A stretch of 64,000 nt of DNA from Cupriavidus pinatubonensis (GTDB lineage Bacteria > Pseudomonadota > Gammaproteobacteria > Burkholderiales > Burkholderiaceae). Location of the stretch: assembly GCF_019602855.1 (NCBI RefSeq), contig NZ_CP080767.1:558001-622000 (forward strand), written 5' to 3'. Position numbers and translations under genes: made by a program. This document shows positions 21,895 to 37,471 of the stretch, in pieces; within the stretch, counting starts at the first letter, position 1, and every line of letters begins with the position of its first letter. The notes beneath the pieces are model-generated. The model saw only the letters and a program-made list of their open reading frames with translations. It ran no database searches and had not been told where the DNA came from.

Positions 21895-22482
21895 CTATCT
21901 GGAAAAAGCGCTAGTACACCACTGGGATTCACAGGGTATGCCATCGCTATCGCCGTCCATCTGAGTGTTTGGACAGCTGTTCAGGAAAAACTTGGCTTCA
22001 CTGCAGGAGGTCATTTGCGAACAATGTGTCCTGCCATCACAACTGAATGCGGTGGACGCTGCCGAGATTGGGGCCATATTTGCCTCCAAGGACAAAGTTT
22101 CCGATGCGCCGGACTTGGGGGCGAAGTACTTGTATCCAAAAGCGCAAAGTGCAGCAACAGTGACCAATCCGACCAGGCGAGATCCAAGTGATTTTTCCTG
22201 GCGCGCCGGCGGTTTCATACGACTTCGGTATGGTGCCGTCAGAGGGACCCCCGGCCGTTGAACGTTGATGGCCTTATTCTTCCCGTCCTGGTTCAGCGTG
22301 ACAAGGAACGTCAATGACTCACCAATCTTTGGCATGCCACCCTGCCTCGGGTAGTCCGAAATATGAACGAAGATGTCCCGACCACCATTCGACGGGGCAA
22401 TAAACCCGAACCCCTTGTCCTTGTTCCAGCTTTTGAGGGTGCCGCTGATGCGTGTGTTCATGCGTTTTGAGGGTGCAGCCAT
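21895..22482 (-). CDS. Cold-shock domain, membrane helix and Excalibur domain fusion
   Basis: A protein of about 195 residues with three parts. The N-terminus is a cold-shock domain (GTLKSWNKDKGFGFI and RDIFVHISDY, the RNP1 and RNP2 motifs). A membrane helix follows (LVGLVTVAALCAFGYKYF). The C-terminal 45 residues are an Excalibur calcium-binding domain with its cysteines and the loop DGDSDGIPCE. The nucleic-acid-binding part would be cytoplasmic and the Excalibur part periplasmic. Start is uncertain: ATG 22482 or ATG 22461, neither with a clear ribosome site. It lies 13 bases behind the nuclease gene. G+C is visibly lower than the chromosome. Confidence 0.8.
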   Translation of the reverse strand: MAAPSKRMNTRISGTLKSWNKDKGFGFIAPSNGGRDIFVHISDYPRQGGMPKIGESLTFLVTLNQDGKNKAINVQRPGVPLTAPYRSRMKPPARQEKSLGSRLVGLVTVAALCAFGYKYFAPKSGASETLSLEANMAPISAASTAFSCDGRTHCSQMTSCSEAKFFLNSCPNTQMDGDSDGIPCESQWCTSAFSR

Positions 22483-22495
22483 TGTGGGGGCGAAG

Positions 22496-23440
22496 TTACG
22501 CCGCGCGGGCAAGCTTGAACCGGCACCCCTTTGAGTAGTTACGGCAACCCCAGAACGAACCGTCCCTACGTTGCCGCTCTACCATCTTCACGCCGCAGGC
22601 TGCACAGGTCGGCGTCTGGTAGTCACCTTCAAATGCTCGCGCAAGCAGCTTGATCTGCTTGTCAGCGTCCAGGGCGCGGATTCGCTCGACGATGGCAGGG
22701 CCGTCGAGTAGTTGGATGCCCGCCTCGGCGGCATAGGTTTGCACTGGCTGGCCGATGTACCCGGTCAATGACCAGAACACGCCCCTCTTCACTTTGTTCG
22801 AGTGCATGACTCCACCAAGCGCCCGAACCGGTTCGACCCTGACTGGTGAACGCCATGCCTTGCATTGGACGACGGCGATCGGCGCCGGCAGCCCATCCTT
22901 GTACAGGGTTGCATCGATACCCCCGTCGGCCCCATGGGGAACCGTTTTGACAGCGAACCCCATAGCCTCGTAGTACCACACGCAAAGCGTCTCAAACCGC
23001 TTCCATTCCAGTTGCCTGAGCGCATCCAGCGACCAGTCCTCCGGTATTGCAGAGGGAGCCATCTGATGCACAACCGGGGGTGTCTCACCGATCCGATCTT
23101 TCGCCTTGGGAGTTTTATTGGCGAGGGAGCCGGGATCAGGAACTGCTCGTAAGGTGCGCTCCCTGCGTTCAGCGCCGCCAGGAACCCTGCCGGCCTGCGT
23201 TTGGCGTTTTCGTGCACGCAGATAGGCCAGCAGCCCGAGAAAGCCGAATATCGCAGCCGGAACCCATGCGAGGGAGCGGCTGACCATGGCAAGGCCGATC
23301 AAGAATGGATTTGAGGCGAGCGAGGCGGGCAGAATGGCATGGAACCCGATGTAGCTGGCGAATGCCAACGCAGCCGAAACCGACCATGGCGCATCCAGCA
23401 GAGCCTCGCTTAGAGGCGATTGTCTTTTCCTCCGACCCAT
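22496..23440 (-). CDS. Membrane-anchored Mrr-type restriction endonuclease with C-terminal zinc ribbon
   Basis: A 314-residue protein. Two membrane helices lie near residues 20-40 and 45-72. A charged linker is followed by the Mrr-type catalytic domain: LEWKRFETLCVWYYEAMGF, the metal-binding GADGGIDATLY and VVQCKAW, the D-(x)n-QxK pattern. The C-terminus is a topoisomerase-like zinc ribbon with CAACGVKM and GCRNYSKGC. The nuclease domain should face the cytoplasm. ATG 23440 has GAGG seven bases upstream; the frame is open further upstream but without similarity. No methylase is present, so it may be a methylation-dependent or defence nuclease. Confidence 0.83.
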   Translation of the reverse strand: MGRRKRQSPLSEALLDAPWSVSAALAFASYIGFHAILPASLASNPFLIGLAMVSRSLAWVPAAIFGFLGLLAYLRARKRQTQAGRVPGGAERRERTLRAVPDPGSLANKTPKAKDRIGETPPVVHQMAPSAIPEDWSLDALRQLEWKRFETLCVWYYEAMGFAVKTVPHGADGGIDATLYKDGLPAPIAVVQCKAWRSPVRVEPVRALGGVMHSNKVKRGVFWSLTGYIGQPVQTYAAEAGIQLLDGPAIVERIRALDADKQIKLLARAFEGDYQTPTCAACGVKMVERQRRDGSFWGCRNYSKGCRFKLARAA

Positions 23441-23591
23441 TGATTTACCTCGTTTTTGTTCAAATCGTTTGAGGCCAAATCTAGCAGAAGTAACAGGGCT
23501 TGCCGGTTGCTCCAACCCAACACCCCACGTCGTGGCTACTCCCCCGTCGTGCATGTCTAATGATACAAACATGGATTGATGGATACTTTCC

Positions 23592-23723
23592 ATGGCATCC
23601 GGAAAATCCCACGCCGCTGAAAGCGTCGAGTTCAGCGGCATGTTCGAGGGCGGTCCGCACCTTGCAATGATCGAAGTCGCTTTACATGGCAAGGCAGCCG
23701 CAGAACTGCCTGCATTACCTTGA
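23592..23723 (+). CDS. Candidate 43-residue ORF coupled to the diguanylate cyclase
   Basis: An ATG-started frame of 43 codons (MASGKSHAAESVEFSGMFEG and onward, ending ELPALP) stops with TGA overlapping the TTG start of the next gene in the four bases TTGA. The overlap suggests translational coupling and would explain why the cyclase has no ribosome site of its own. There is no recognisable domain and only a weak ribosome site, so it may not be real. Confidence 0.3.
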   Translation: MASGKSHAAESVEFSGMFEGGPHLAMIEVALHGKAAAELPALP

Positions 23724-24937
23724 ATCTCGATTCCATCACTGAATTCGCGATCGATCCGCTGCGCCTGGAGTTCCGAAGCGCGGAAACGGAACTGGCGTTC
23801 CAGCGCCACCATCTGGATCGCAGTCGGGCGAGCCTGCGCCTGACACTGACTTTCTGCTCCGTCTTCTATCTGGCCTTTGCCATGACGGATGTGGCGGTGC
23901 TGGGCTATGGACGCGAGGCGCTGATCCTGTTCGCCGCGCGCATGCTGGTCGCGATCACCGCAACCATGGGCTTGTTCCTGATCCGCAACCAGCAGGAGCC
24001 CATTGCGGGTCTCTGGTTCGTTGCCAGTGCCGCCGAGATCGTGGGCATGACCACCTTCATGCTTATCGTCTGGTACCGCCCCAGTGAAATTCCGTGGCAT
24101 GGGATGTCGCTGTGCATCATGCTGATCGTCGTCTACATCTTCATCCCTAACCGGCTGATCATCGCAAAGGGCATCGCGATTGCCTCGACGGCGGCGTTCG
24201 TTCTCGTCGCGGTGGAGAAAGGAACGGGCCCGGCCGCCGGTACGCTGACCATGTCGATGCTATTGCTGCTTGCCAACAGCTTCGGGCTCGTAGCAGCGCG
24301 TCGTTACCATCGCCTGTGGCGAGACGAATATCGCGTCCTCATGGACCTGAAGCAGGTGTCCCTGAGAGACCATCTGACCGATTGCTACAACCGACGCCAT
24401 CTGCATGAGACGCTGCTCCCCACGGAAATCGCGAGGGCGCGCCGGTATCAGCACTGGCTGACCATGGTGGTCTGTGACATTGACCACTTCAAGTCGATCA
24501 ACGACACGCATGGCCACCAGTCCGGTGACGCCGTGCTGCAGCACATCGCGGCCGTTCTCCGGGCCACCACCCGCAGGCACGTGGACAGCGTGGTCCGCTA
24601 TGGCGGCGAAGAATTCCTGCTGCTCCTGCCGCAAACGGGCCCGGACGGTGCCTCGTATGTGGCGGAGCGGCTCAGGACTTCGATCGCGGGCAGTCCGACG
24701 ATCGATGGCGCTGGCCGAAGCATCGAAGCGACGGCCAGCTTTGGAGTGCTGGCGGTCGATTTCTCGTCCGTTGGAAGTGACGTCACCGAAACGTCGTTGA
24801 TCGCTGCCGCCGATGCGCTGCTTTACGAAGCCAAGGCATCCGGCCGGAACAGCATCCGCTTCCGGGAATGGCCCGGCAAATCGCGGGAACAGGACGTCAA
24901 TGTTCTTGTGCTGGCTGCCTCCGATGCGCCGGGATGA
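23720..24937 (+). CDS. Diguanylate cyclase (GGDEF domain) with multi-helix membrane sensor
   Basis: A 405-residue protein. Six hydrophobic helices between about residues 40 and 195 form a membrane sensor, followed by a GGDEF domain from residue 215. The active site is GGEEF at 295-299 and the domain start is RDHLTDCYNRRHL. The inhibitory I-site RxxD is present at 286-289, five residues before GGEEF, so product inhibition by c-di-GMP is expected. No EAL domain. The start is a TTG without a visible ribosome site; no ATG is available upstream in frame. It ends 43 bases from the convergent moaC. Confidence 0.88.
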   Translation: MNLDSITEFAIDPLRLEFRSAETELAFQRHHLDRSRASLRLTLTFCSVFYLAFAMTDVAVLGYGREALILFAARMLVAITATMGLFLIRNQQEPIAGLWFVASAAEIVGMTTFMLIVWYRPSEIPWHGMSLCIMLIVVYIFIPNRLIIAKGIAIASTAAFVLVAVEKGTGPAAGTLTMSMLLLLANSFGLVAARRYHRLWRDEYRVLMDLKQVSLRDHLTDCYNRRHLHETLLPTEIARARRYQHWLTMVVCDIDHFKSINDTHGHQSGDAVLQHIAAVLRATTRRHVDSVVRYGGEEFLLLLPQTGPDGASYVAERLRTSIAGSPTIDGAGRSIEATASFGVLAVDFSSVGSDVTETSLIAAADALLYEAKASGRNSIRFREWPGKSREQDVNVLVLAASDAPG

Positions 24938-35314: not shown

Positions 35315-35627
35315 CTAAGACAAATAGAGGTAGATCTGCTTCCACAGCTTGCCGTGGCGTAAAGAGTCGAGGGGAAGCAAGGAGAGCGGAAGAAGCGCAA
35401 TGCACAGGAGCCAGAGTGCCCGCTGTCCCACGGACCGACCCAACGCCATCACCGCGCCTGCAGCGAAGGGGGGCCACGATGGCGTAGACCCGGACCCACG
35501 TCGGACAGTCTTCGGCACAGGAGTGGAGCTTCAATACTCCTGCGACATACGTCGGCCCGAGGTCAATCAGGCAACCCAGGCCAAAGCCGATGATGAAGAG
35601 TATGGTTTTCGCAAAGAATGTCTTCAT
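35315..35627 (-). pseudogene. Frameshifted small membrane protein, paralog of the next gene
   Basis: The frame opens at ATG 35627 with MKTFFAKTILFIIGFGLGCL and is lost at a run of six G on the plus strand (35468-35473). Removing one base restores a 103-residue protein ending KLWKQIYLYLS at 35315; the corrected length (312 bases) is an exact multiple of three. It has an N-terminal membrane helix, a C-x3-C motif (HSCAEDCP) and further hydrophobic segments. The first 55 residues closely resemble the intact gene at 35724-36044. Pseudogene or sequencing error cannot be told apart here. Confidence 0.65.
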
Positions 35628-35723
35628 GATTGGCTGATCAGCGGAATTCCTCGGGCATTGGTCAGGTAGTTGCAAGGATTCCCTGTGCTTTCCATGACCG
35701 AAGAGACTTTGTGTGCGACTCGA

Positions 35724-36044
35724 TTAGAAGTGGGAGAGGATCCGCCGCAGCAGTCCGATCTGATACGCATGGCTGAGCCACGCTAATGAGCAATGCGCGA
35801 GTGCCAGCAAGAGCAAGATGACCGCCCATTGCCTAACTGTGCGCATCCAGGCCAGAGCGAAGGAAAGAGCAAATGGCGTCAGCAGGTATAGGAAGATGGC
35901 GCTTGCCTGAATCCACGAAGGGCATCCCTCCGAGCATGATGAGATATTCAGCGTTTCCTCCACATAGGTTGGTACAAGATCAAACAGGCAGCCGAGGAAA
36001 AAGCCAATCAAGAGCAGGAAAGTCCTTGCAAGAATTGCTTTCAT
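35724..36044 (-). CDS. Small membrane protein, candidate immunity protein of the Tae4 island
   Basis: A 106-residue protein of unknown family. It has an N-terminal membrane helix (FLLLIGFFLGCLFDL), a C-x3-C motif (SCSEGCPSW) and two further hydrophobic segments, so probably three helices. The gene begins 10 bases after the broken Tae4-type amidase stop, on the same strand, and a frameshifted paralog lies just downstream. The position is where an immunity gene is expected, but it does not look like Tai4, which is a soluble periplasmic protein. G+C is clearly lower than in the flanking chromosome. Confidence 0.6.
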   Translation of the reverse strand: MKAILARTFLLLIGFFLGCLFDLVPTYVEETLNISSCSEGCPSWIQASAIFLYLLTPFALSFALAWMRTVRQWAVILLLLALAHCSLAWLSHAYQIGLLRRILSHF

Positions 36045-36054
36045 GGCTATCGGG

Positions 36055-36692
36055 CTAGCTGATTTCGAAGAACCAAATCACTCTTGCCTTGCCCAGATCG
36101 GCGTACGTACGACGAATGCTACGGATGCCTACACGGAATCTCAGAAAGTTGTGAAAGGCGCCGATGATGCCATTTGCCGTGAGCGTGGCGCCATTCCACA
36201 GGTCGATATGCCCCCCCTGTTGCCGCATCGGCCGATTCATCATGGCGCTGCCAGTATTCACCAAAGAAGATAATCCCGGTCCGGCCCCTCACCTTGTCGT
36301 GCCAGTCCGGCCCAGTCACCACATCGGGCCTTTCCGGTAATCCCGCAAACGGCTTCAGACACAACCACTGAGCCATTTCGTCCGCACGCGTAGCGGTCGG
36401 TTTTCCATCCAGAAGGATGCGCCCGAGCGTTGATTTCCCCCGGCCCGGCCTGACGTTCTTCTGGGAAAAGGACTTCATGTCGATGCCGATGCGATGCAGG
36501 GGTCGCGCTGAGCCGGATGGCGCACTGATTGGTGTGAGTCCTCTCCGGATCGCTATAGGGCTTGCCTGTGACGTAGTTGTCCCACAGTTGTCGGAAGGTA
36601 ACTGGCTGAATTTTCAGACTGATGGTCGAGCCAGCAACGGGGTTTGTCCGGATCGTACGGGCGCCGGCGGCAGGTAAGGATTGCGTCGGCAT
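36055..36692 (-). pseudogene. Type VI secretion amidase effector, Tae4-type, disrupted by two frameshifts
   Basis: Three successive frames together make one Tae4-like peptidoglycan amidase. The first (ATG 36692) carries FRQLWDNYVTGKPY and the catalytic cysteine in NQCAIRLS (codon 36532-36534). The second resumes as MKSFSQKNVRPGRGKSTLG through DEMAQWLCLKP and GRTGIIFFGEYW. The third carries the catalytic histidine in GGHIDLWNG (codon 36208-36210) and ends ARVIWFFEIS. Each break is one extra base in a G/C run: GGGG at 36499-36502 and CCCCCCC at 36211-36217. With both corrected the gene is 636 bases, 211 residues. It starts two bases after the PAAR gene. Confidence 0.75.
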
Positions 36693-36694
36693 GG

Positions 36695-37258
36695 TCAGCC
36701 TCGCGCCAGGGCATCATCGCCCCAAAAAATCTCGTAAGCGCCGAGGCTTTCCGTGGCGATGCGGGGCATCTGCCCGGTCGCGTCGAGTTTCCCACTAAAT
36801 CGGCGGCCATCAGCGGTTTCAATGAAGAACGGCAGCCCGGCAAGGCAGGCCGGTTCAGCGCCGGCGGACAGATGGACCGCCTCGTCGTAGTGCCCGGACT
36901 CTCCCGGGAAATCGCTTTGTACTGGATGTTTGGCGAACCCTTGCGCAACAAGCTCGTCGTGCGTCAGGACGTGGGACATGCCCGTCATGGAGTGAATCAG
37001 CCGCGGCGAGGGATCGCACCGGCAGACACAGAGATCGCCTTCGAGTGCGTCCTTTCTGCCATGGAATGAATTACTGTGCCGTGGACCGATGCAGAGGATA
37101 TGTCCCGTTGTCTTGCAGGCCGGACACCAGACGGCGTCGCCCTCCAGGGCTAGGGGTACGCCCATCTGGGTCATTCGGGCATCATTGGCGCCAACCACCA
37201 TGCCATTAGCGGTGGTCTTGTCGCCTTGTACGAGGTTGTACCGGATGTGTCGATGCAT
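36695..37258 (-). CDS. PAAR domain-containing protein
   Basis: A 187-residue protein. Residues 1-90 form a PAAR domain, the conical tip that caps the VgrG spike of type VI secretion systems: GDKTTANGMVVGANDARM, then GVPLALEGDAVWCPACKTTG and ALEGDLCVCRCD. The C-terminal 90 residues form a small extension ending GQMPRIATESLGAYEIFWGD, seen in other PAAR proteins that carry adaptor or linker regions. The ATG at 37258 has AAGGAG six bases upstream, which decides against the earlier ATG at 37273. No vgrG or tss genes are in the window, so this is an orphan spike-effector unit. Confidence 0.83.
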   Translation of the reverse strand: MHRHIRYNLVQGDKTTANGMVVGANDARMTQMGVPLALEGDAVWCPACKTTGHILCIGPRHSNSFHGRKDALEGDLCVCRCDPSPRLIHSMTGMSHVLTHDELVAQGFAKHPVQSDFPGESGHYDEAVHLSAGAEPACLAGLPFFIETADGRRFSGKLDATGQMPRIATESLGAYEIFWGDDALARG

Positions 37259-37471
37259 GGGATGCTCCTTCATTGCCTGAGAAGGGGGCGCATCCATGCG
37301 TATAGCGCCGATAAGGCGCGTTTGGAATCGACAAATTCCTAAAGTCGCTGAGGAAAAGGCTGAATTTCAGTGGAGGTGTCGCGTGTATATGGCGCTTCTG
37401 GCGAACGGCTGGAGGGCTTTCTGGACTGCCGCATAGCAGTCGGTACTGCTCAGGCGAAGAGCCAGGAAGGC

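Follow-up and report, generated by a model that had tools for sequence, protein, structure and literature searches.

Small membrane proteins accompany a separate branch of the amidase effector Tae4 in Burkholderiaceae and probably represent its own type of immunity

The peptidoglycan amidase Tae4, an effector of type VI secretion systems (T6SSs), is known together with its immunity protein Tai4 (PF16695). Rap1a and Rap2a of Serratia, which represent the latter, are Sec-exported soluble dimers of the periplasm (PMC3533786), the Tae4/Tai4 complex has been described as a heterotetramer (PMC10763514), and BCAM1464-1465 of Burkholderia cenocepacia was named a Tae4-Tai4 pair (PMC6612558). Toxicity of Ssp2 and of Tae4 from Enterobacter cloacae requires a disulfide in the tail, which in the latter protein orients the catalytic Asp (PMC5792426). 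For a T6SS effector of another family, DUF3289, an immunity protein of 95 amino acids with three transmembrane (TM) helices and demonstrated protection was reported in Aeromonas jandaei (PMC12135965), and DUF3289 itself was proposed to resemble colicin M (PMC11148199). Each effector family is usually taken to have one fixed type of immunity. We describe here a Tae4 gene followed by genes of small membrane proteins, which was found in a stretch of 64,000 nucleotides of Cupriavidus pinatubonensis (contig NZ_CP080767.1, positions 558,001 to 622,000), called below the window. An earlier note on this DNA had proposed that two paralogous small membrane proteins encoded behind an amidase gene may be a new type of immunity to Tae4.

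According to the data obtained so far, this proposal reaches further than its authors suggested. Small membrane proteins of this kind accompany a whole branch of Tae4, for which we coin the name Tae4-M, and most likely (with a probability of about 0.78) protect the producing cell. Family membership of the sequences, predicted topology and phylogeny all speak for a new type of immunity; protection itself is inferred. In the window the genes in question are arranged as follows.

36695..37297, minus strand: PAAR-motif protein, intact, 200 amino acids from the first start codon (Pfam PAAR_motif, E 1.8e-10)
36055..36692, minus strand: broken gene of the amidase effector Tae4, Tae4-M branch (Pfam Tae4 matches two of its pieces, profile A7 all three)
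36501-36653, 36212-36499 and 36061-36228, minus strand: reading-frame pieces of this Tae4-M gene, in three frames
35724..36044, minus strand: small membrane protein with three predicted helices, intact, 106 amino acids, CSEGC in the first predicted periplasmic loop; the proposed cognate immunity protein
35315..35627, minus strand: paralogue of the small membrane protein, frameshifted and split across two frames, CAEDC

The neighbour of the small genes is indeed Tae4: two of its pieces match Pfam family PF14113, one of them above the cut-off (29.7 bits vs 27; 32.8 bits in the search of the genome), and the branch profile A7 is matched along positions 1-198 by three pieces of the gene (1-49, 50-144 and 139-198). 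The intact small open reading frame (ORF) begins 10 bp behind the Tae4 stop. As the earlier note had it, one of the two related genes is intact and the other frameshifted. The N-terminal part of the second copy is 53% identical to the first over 51 residues, both copies carry the C-x3-C motif (CSEGC and CAEDC), and each of the two pieces of the second copy is recognised on its own by the profile of the subfamily (E 8.9e-15 and 8e-5). These pieces are closer to the intact protein from locus L050 of the same genus (58% and 68%) than to the first copy in the window (54% and 36%). Protein search revealed no third copy in the own genome (one further match had E 0.53).

The partners of Tae4 were then surveyed in the family Burkholderiaceae. 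PF14113 matched 103 of 398 genomes, and the survey covered, among the 150 matches listed, 148 distinct places in 101 genomes, leaving out G081 and G110, which count among the 103. A gene was considered intact if a single frame extended over at least 80% of the profile, and the start of the partner was allowed up to 1.6 kb downstream of Tae4. All 92 intact Tae4-M genes were followed by a membrane partner, which covered at least 70% of its profile in 90 cases, and none of them by Tai4. In contrast, the genes scored as classical and intact had Tai4 in 33 of 38 cases, no partner in five and a membrane partner in none. Broken or partial Tae4-M, including that of the window, retained the membrane partner in 11/13 places, and partial classical genes retained Tai4 in 4/5. 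Branch profiles were built from loci with already known partners; a fairer test is therefore provided by 54 places fetched later, where all 33 intact Tae4-M had the membrane partner and 16 of 18 intact classical genes had Tai4. The partner profile begins no more than 30 bp from the Tae4 stop in 90/92 Tae4-M and 33/33 classical pairs, with the start codon lying within a 4-bp overlap with the effector stop in 86/92 and 28/33 of them, respectively. Since 13 genomes contain both kinds of Tae4 in intact form, the split between the branches is more than taxonomy. The records of Robbsia andropogonis and Paraburkholderia sprentiae include an annotated Tae4 but no entry for the membrane gene that follows; the plasmid gene table is described as incomplete.

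Judging from these sequences, Tae4 of Burkholderiaceae is divided into two branches, Tae4-M and classical. In the tree built on 122 shared columns, a branch (100/99) separates the 18 Tai4-partnered rows from the 59 membrane-partnered ones, so that a single change suffices for the choice between Tai4 and membrane partners. If all partner classes are considered, 12 changes are needed on the same tree, and related Tae4-M proteins can therefore have partners from different groups. The tree includes 83 of 92 Tae4 loci, those with several Tae4 frames or less than 100 amino acids being left out, and long branches meet in it, according to a warning of the tool. Five intact loci scored as classical but devoid of a partner (L100, L101, L102, L242 and L244) have nearly equal scores with both branch profiles, and four of them possess the pair of tail cysteines discussed below; L100-L103 form a group of their own in the tree. 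Together with L103, which likewise scores nearly equally with both profiles, these loci are Tae4-like genes without a recognised immunity partner.

The branches differ in other features as well. An ORF related to the PAAR protein of the window was found on the same strand within 1.6 kb upstream in 93/105 Tae4-M places and in 0/43 classical ones, the profile being seeded with the window's own PAAR, so that an unrelated PAAR near classical Tae4 would escape. Inner insertions distinguish Tae4-M from classical Tae4. Its tail beyond the conserved His is also longer (median 50 vs 30 residues), and its N-terminus exceeds that of the solved Tae4 chains by about 28 residues. Among intact genes with the His motif located, which are all but one Tae4-M and three classical, the pair of tail cysteines was found in none of 91 Tae4-M and in all 35 classical proteins, of which 31 are partnered with Tai4 and four are partnerless. 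The need for the disulfide was shown in enterobacterial members only, and the pair thus is not strictly defining for Tae4. Because it is absent from Tae4-M and the disulfide is required in Ssp2, Tae4-M is presumably independent of DsbA of the target cell. The AlphaFold model of the intact Tae4-M protein from L050 (predicted local distance difference test score, pLDDT, 85; predicted template modelling score, pTM, 0.82) matches nine Tae4 entries at Z 13.0-14.4 (14.4 to 6ijf_C), while the best non-Tae4 chain reaches 6.1, and the modelled fold is plainly that of Tae4. C57, which the alignment equates with C50 of Ssp1, is present in 56/57 aligned Tae4-M proteins (with one gap), and H161 in 57/57; we take this Cys and His to be catalytic. 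The idea that the longer tail forms a membrane-binding amphipathic helix was rejected, since its helical moments were not clearly above those of shuffled sequences (median rank 0.22, with 6.5% of 46 tails below 0.05).

Membrane partners are not uniform. Within the first 92 Tae4 loci, to which the grouping applies, the largest set, class 1 (38 loci), consists of proteins of about 110 amino acids with three TM helices; the group of the window occupies four loci, and 11 loci encode proteins of about 200 amino acids having three TM helices and a C-terminal domain. Two further groups of about 70-150 amino acids, mostly with two TM helices, were found in six and five loci, Tai4 in 19, and other partners or none in nine. 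Profile comparison, which covered the window group, class 1 and the 200-residue group, related the first to the second (probability 96.1, E 3.7e-9) and the second to the third (91.3, E 9.4e-7), the similarity between the window group and the 200-residue group being weaker (82.0, E 1.1e-5). Two or three hydrophobic segments were registered in 90 of 92 first partners of intact Tae4-M vs none or one in Tai4 partners. A pair of cysteines in a polar stretch near the N-terminus was found in 78 of these 92 proteins; a looser count had given 80, but in two of them the pair lies in hydrophobic stretches, so the lower number is preferred. Tandem membrane partners are present in 14/105 Tae4-M places. In L191 (plasmid pla_1 of Burkholderia arboris) two partners from different groups stand in tandem behind one Tae4-M, and the same is seen in L193, L198, L206, L228 and L229. 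In L049 (G385:C178:461-4817), belonging to the genus of the window, the frame of Tae4-M is open, but frame changes disrupt the gene of the membrane immunity protein; this assembly is only 86% complete, and an error in it is possible.

The earlier note described the small protein as having about 105 residues and an N-terminal helix. The size was correct (106 amino acids), but instead of a single helix three are predicted. Its sequence has three hydrophobic peaks. Lysines or arginines stand at positions 2-3 and again in the stretch that joins helix 2 to helix 3, and the link between helices 1 and 2 contains acidic residues together with the Cys pair; the structural model contains helices 2-32, 43-66 and 70-105. 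Orientation of membrane proteins is known to follow the positive-inside rule. Based on this rule and on the distribution of basic residues, loop 1 is predicted to be periplasmic. The chain would start in the cytoplasm, cross the membrane with helix 1, return with helix 2 after a short loop in the periplasm and cross again with helix 3 after a basic loop in the cytoplasm. In the alignment of the window group with class 1 (37 of its 38 members, L035 being left out) G14, C37, C41 and P57 are invariant in 42/42 relatives, which are only 12-45% identical to the window protein, and this conservation exceeds what chance would give. The soluble Sec-dependent form typical of Tai4 is not what is predicted here, given three hydrophobic segments and three long helices in the model. 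No match to PF16695 was obtained for the window protein, 38 class-1 members, L006, L008 and five members of other groups, whereas two Tai4 proteins used as controls scored 131.8 and 65 bits against the cut-off of 27.1. Searches of Pfam with the window protein, with class 1 and with individual members of other groups likewise gave no family above cut-off (sub-threshold matches were scattered), and NCBIfam, searched with the window protein and class 1, gave none either. Foldseek with the model of the immunity protein found nothing at E<=0.001, and the search of PDB sequences with alignment A6 gave a single weak match to a CHAT protein (E 0.021).

Clear relatives of the window protein were found in 200 genomes of the same family at L006, L007 and L008 (E 3.5e-10 or better), each directly behind Tae4 with the 4-bp overlap, and in L006 and L007 with PAAR also upstream. 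L050 contains an intact relative behind intact Tae4, and intact relatives of the broken Tae4 gene of the window are known from L050, L006 and L007. If homologues were widespread without an effector nearby, the earlier note would have regarded its idea as refuted. For the window subfamily this was not observed: in 398 genomes all seven gene copies at E<1e-10 belong to a Tae4 locus, counting the second copy of the window, which is one gene farther from Tae4. Four weak matches of profile A2 (E 0.005-0.007) include one beside Tae4 (G214:C90) and three outside the Tae4 list, which look like chance. Scanning genome contigs for close relatives gave nothing with the single window protein and only matches in Paraburkholderia sartisoli and P. 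saeva with alignment A2; tblastn of the window protein against plasmids gave no match. Constant adjacency to Tae4, which the note wanted to see, holds only in part for a larger sister family. Tae4 lies within 3 kb upstream on the same strand for 78 of its 102 matches, and for 61 of these 78 the distance to the edge of the matched Tae4 profile is 9-15 bp. Of the 24 matches without called Tae4, 20 were fetched, and eight of them have Tae4 remnants directly upstream.

One can assume the following course of events. Tae4-M would be injected into the periplasm by the T6SS of a sibling cell, where the Cys-paired loop and periplasmic helix ends of the small protein may bind it at the outer face of the inner membrane. 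The bound amidase would be blocked or held, and the wall of the producer spared. In the genome studied the effector and one immunity copy are broken, and the intact copy may persist as an orphan shield against kin that are still armed. The immunity reading is preferred because the small protein occupies the place of Tai4, with no Tai4 beside the 92 intact Tae4-M, and because it occurs in tandem copies, beside broken or partial effectors and as orphans. Distances between effectors correlate with those between immunity proteins (r 0.46, n=37, 0/2000 permutations as high). Several observations weigh against it. Linkage alone would yield some co-divergence of effector and partner. Twelve of the 20 fetched Tae4-less copies of the sister family show no effector remnant and are true orphans. 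Partners fall into several sequence groups, and the Cys pair in a polar loop is missing from 14 of the 92 first ones, of which 13 belong to one group with two TM helices, so that a common mode of binding is uncertain. The model of the immunity protein is only of moderate quality (pLDDT 77.7, pTM 0.48). Class-1 and window-group proteins average 26% identity vs 60% for their Tae4-M (n=37; alignments A6 and A7), which is in itself a striking imbalance for an effector-immunity pair. Finally, the rule becomes less clean outside the family, where six of 274 genomes, the own genome included, had a match. By reading, partners there seem to have two TM helices in L174, L176 and L182 and several in L175, look like proteins with a signal peptide or lipoproteins in L180, L185 and L186, and were not made out in L178 and L179, L182 and L179 being hard to read near contig ends.

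Three other explanations were considered. Tae4-M may work at the membrane surface on a lipid-linked precursor or fresh glycan, in which case the immunity protein would do more than bind the free enzyme and would guard this site. Such an idea would give a sense to the inner insertions, the N-terminal extension and the longer tail without cysteines, and it has a parallel in the small protein with three TM helices that protects Aeromonas from a DUF3289 effector (PMC12135965), the more so that DUF3289 is proposed to be similar to colicin M, which acts on lipid II (PMC11148199). We nevertheless find it unlikely, as the fold is plainly that of Tae4 and the additional tail is no more amphipathic than shuffled sequence. 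Equally doubtful is its most developed form, in which Tae4 would have diverged into two types of weapon and Tae4-M would be a PAAR-linked, DsbA-independent amidase attacking lipid-linked or nascent peptidoglycan on the periplasmic side of the inner membrane. For this reason it would be countered by polytopic membrane proteins that have a helix-loop-helix in common and in most cases a Cys-paired loop in the periplasm.

That the small protein is instead a helper of delivery or export, such as a holin-like partner or a chaperone of the amidase, is suggested by its two or three TM helices next to a wall hydrolase and by the association with PAAR. This seems quite improbable for a protein standing in the position of Tai4 with the same 4-bp start overlap, duplicated in some places and present beside damaged effectors or without any effector at all. 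Least of all do we expect that the small ORFs are kept for an unrelated membrane function and just travel with Tae4: the orphans agree with it, but co-divergence with Tae4-M, the strict split by Tae4 branch and the tight spacing behind Tae4 in most of the sister family do not. A look at one orphan class-1 protein (L155:1718-4324) showed it in an island that by eye resembles T6SS cargo; the island contains PAAR-like proteins, a putative effector similar to lysozyme and a small protein whose start resembles a signal peptide.

Returning to the window with protection as the preferred role, its module is best explained, and with considerable confidence, as a decayed T6SS effector module composed of a PAAR tip, the Tae4-M amidase and tandem immunity genes. 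As a weapon it looks dead, and the intact immunity gene is probably a leftover shield. Frame breaks may originate from sequencing errors, but long genes neighbouring the broken ones read through intact. The module occupies the minus strand between a gene of a TctC-type receptor and a Sua5/YrdC gene, and its G+C content is lower (61.5% in the 34-36 kb bin and 61.2% in the 36-38 kb bin) than in the flanking bins (68.7% and 67.6%). Another dip, to 58%, is located at 22001-24000, where one more acquired stretch is possible. The host genome (7.5 Mb in 4 contigs) contains two TssC (TssC/VipB) loci and, therefore, probably two T6SSs; together with the PAAR spike gene at the locus this is the setting of an effector-immunity pair. 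The PAAR protein is the probable spike tip of the module. About 100 residues after its PAAR motif (36695-36990) resemble those in the PAAR proteins of L006 and L007 and may form a cargo-binding domain, perhaps transthyretin-like.

Thus, within one amidase family two branches would rely on unrelated immunity proteins located in different compartments, and they also differ in the upstream gene and tail chemistry. Several questions thereby become testable: by what means an enzyme that cuts the wall is arrested from inside the membrane, whether Tae4-M gets by without DsbA in target cells, and whether the cutting site of the toxin is mirrored in membrane immunity. In addition, a role is proposed for small genes of a family matched by none of the curated models tried.

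The literature searched, which consisted mostly of open-access papers and left most subscription papers outside, contains in its available parts neither a report of a membrane protein as immunity to Tae4 or another amidase nor a report of Tae4 being split by immunity type. The novelty expected in the earlier note therefore stands for amidases within this literature but does not extend to T6SS effectors in general, as a tested immunity protein with three TM helices is known for DUF3289 (PMC12135965). The Tae4-M locus resembles Tae4-Tai4 pairs in the effector family (PF14113), its fold and the position of the immunity gene, which follows the effector gene immediately and in most cases has the 4-bp overlap with it. 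Its partner differs in that it does not match PF16695 and has two to three membrane helices, Tai4 being described as soluble and periplasmic, and Tae4-M itself differs in the related PAAR upstream, extra segments and lack of the tail Cys pair. The immunity protein of DUF3289, compared here by its published description, is similar in its three predicted TM helices and in being encoded right behind a T6SS effector for which action in the periplasm has been proposed, but that effector is not a Tae4 amidase. Membrane-embedded immunity proteins also counteract pore-forming T6SS effectors such as Ssp6. There, however, the toxin itself acts in the membrane, whereas here it is a peptidoglycan amidase.
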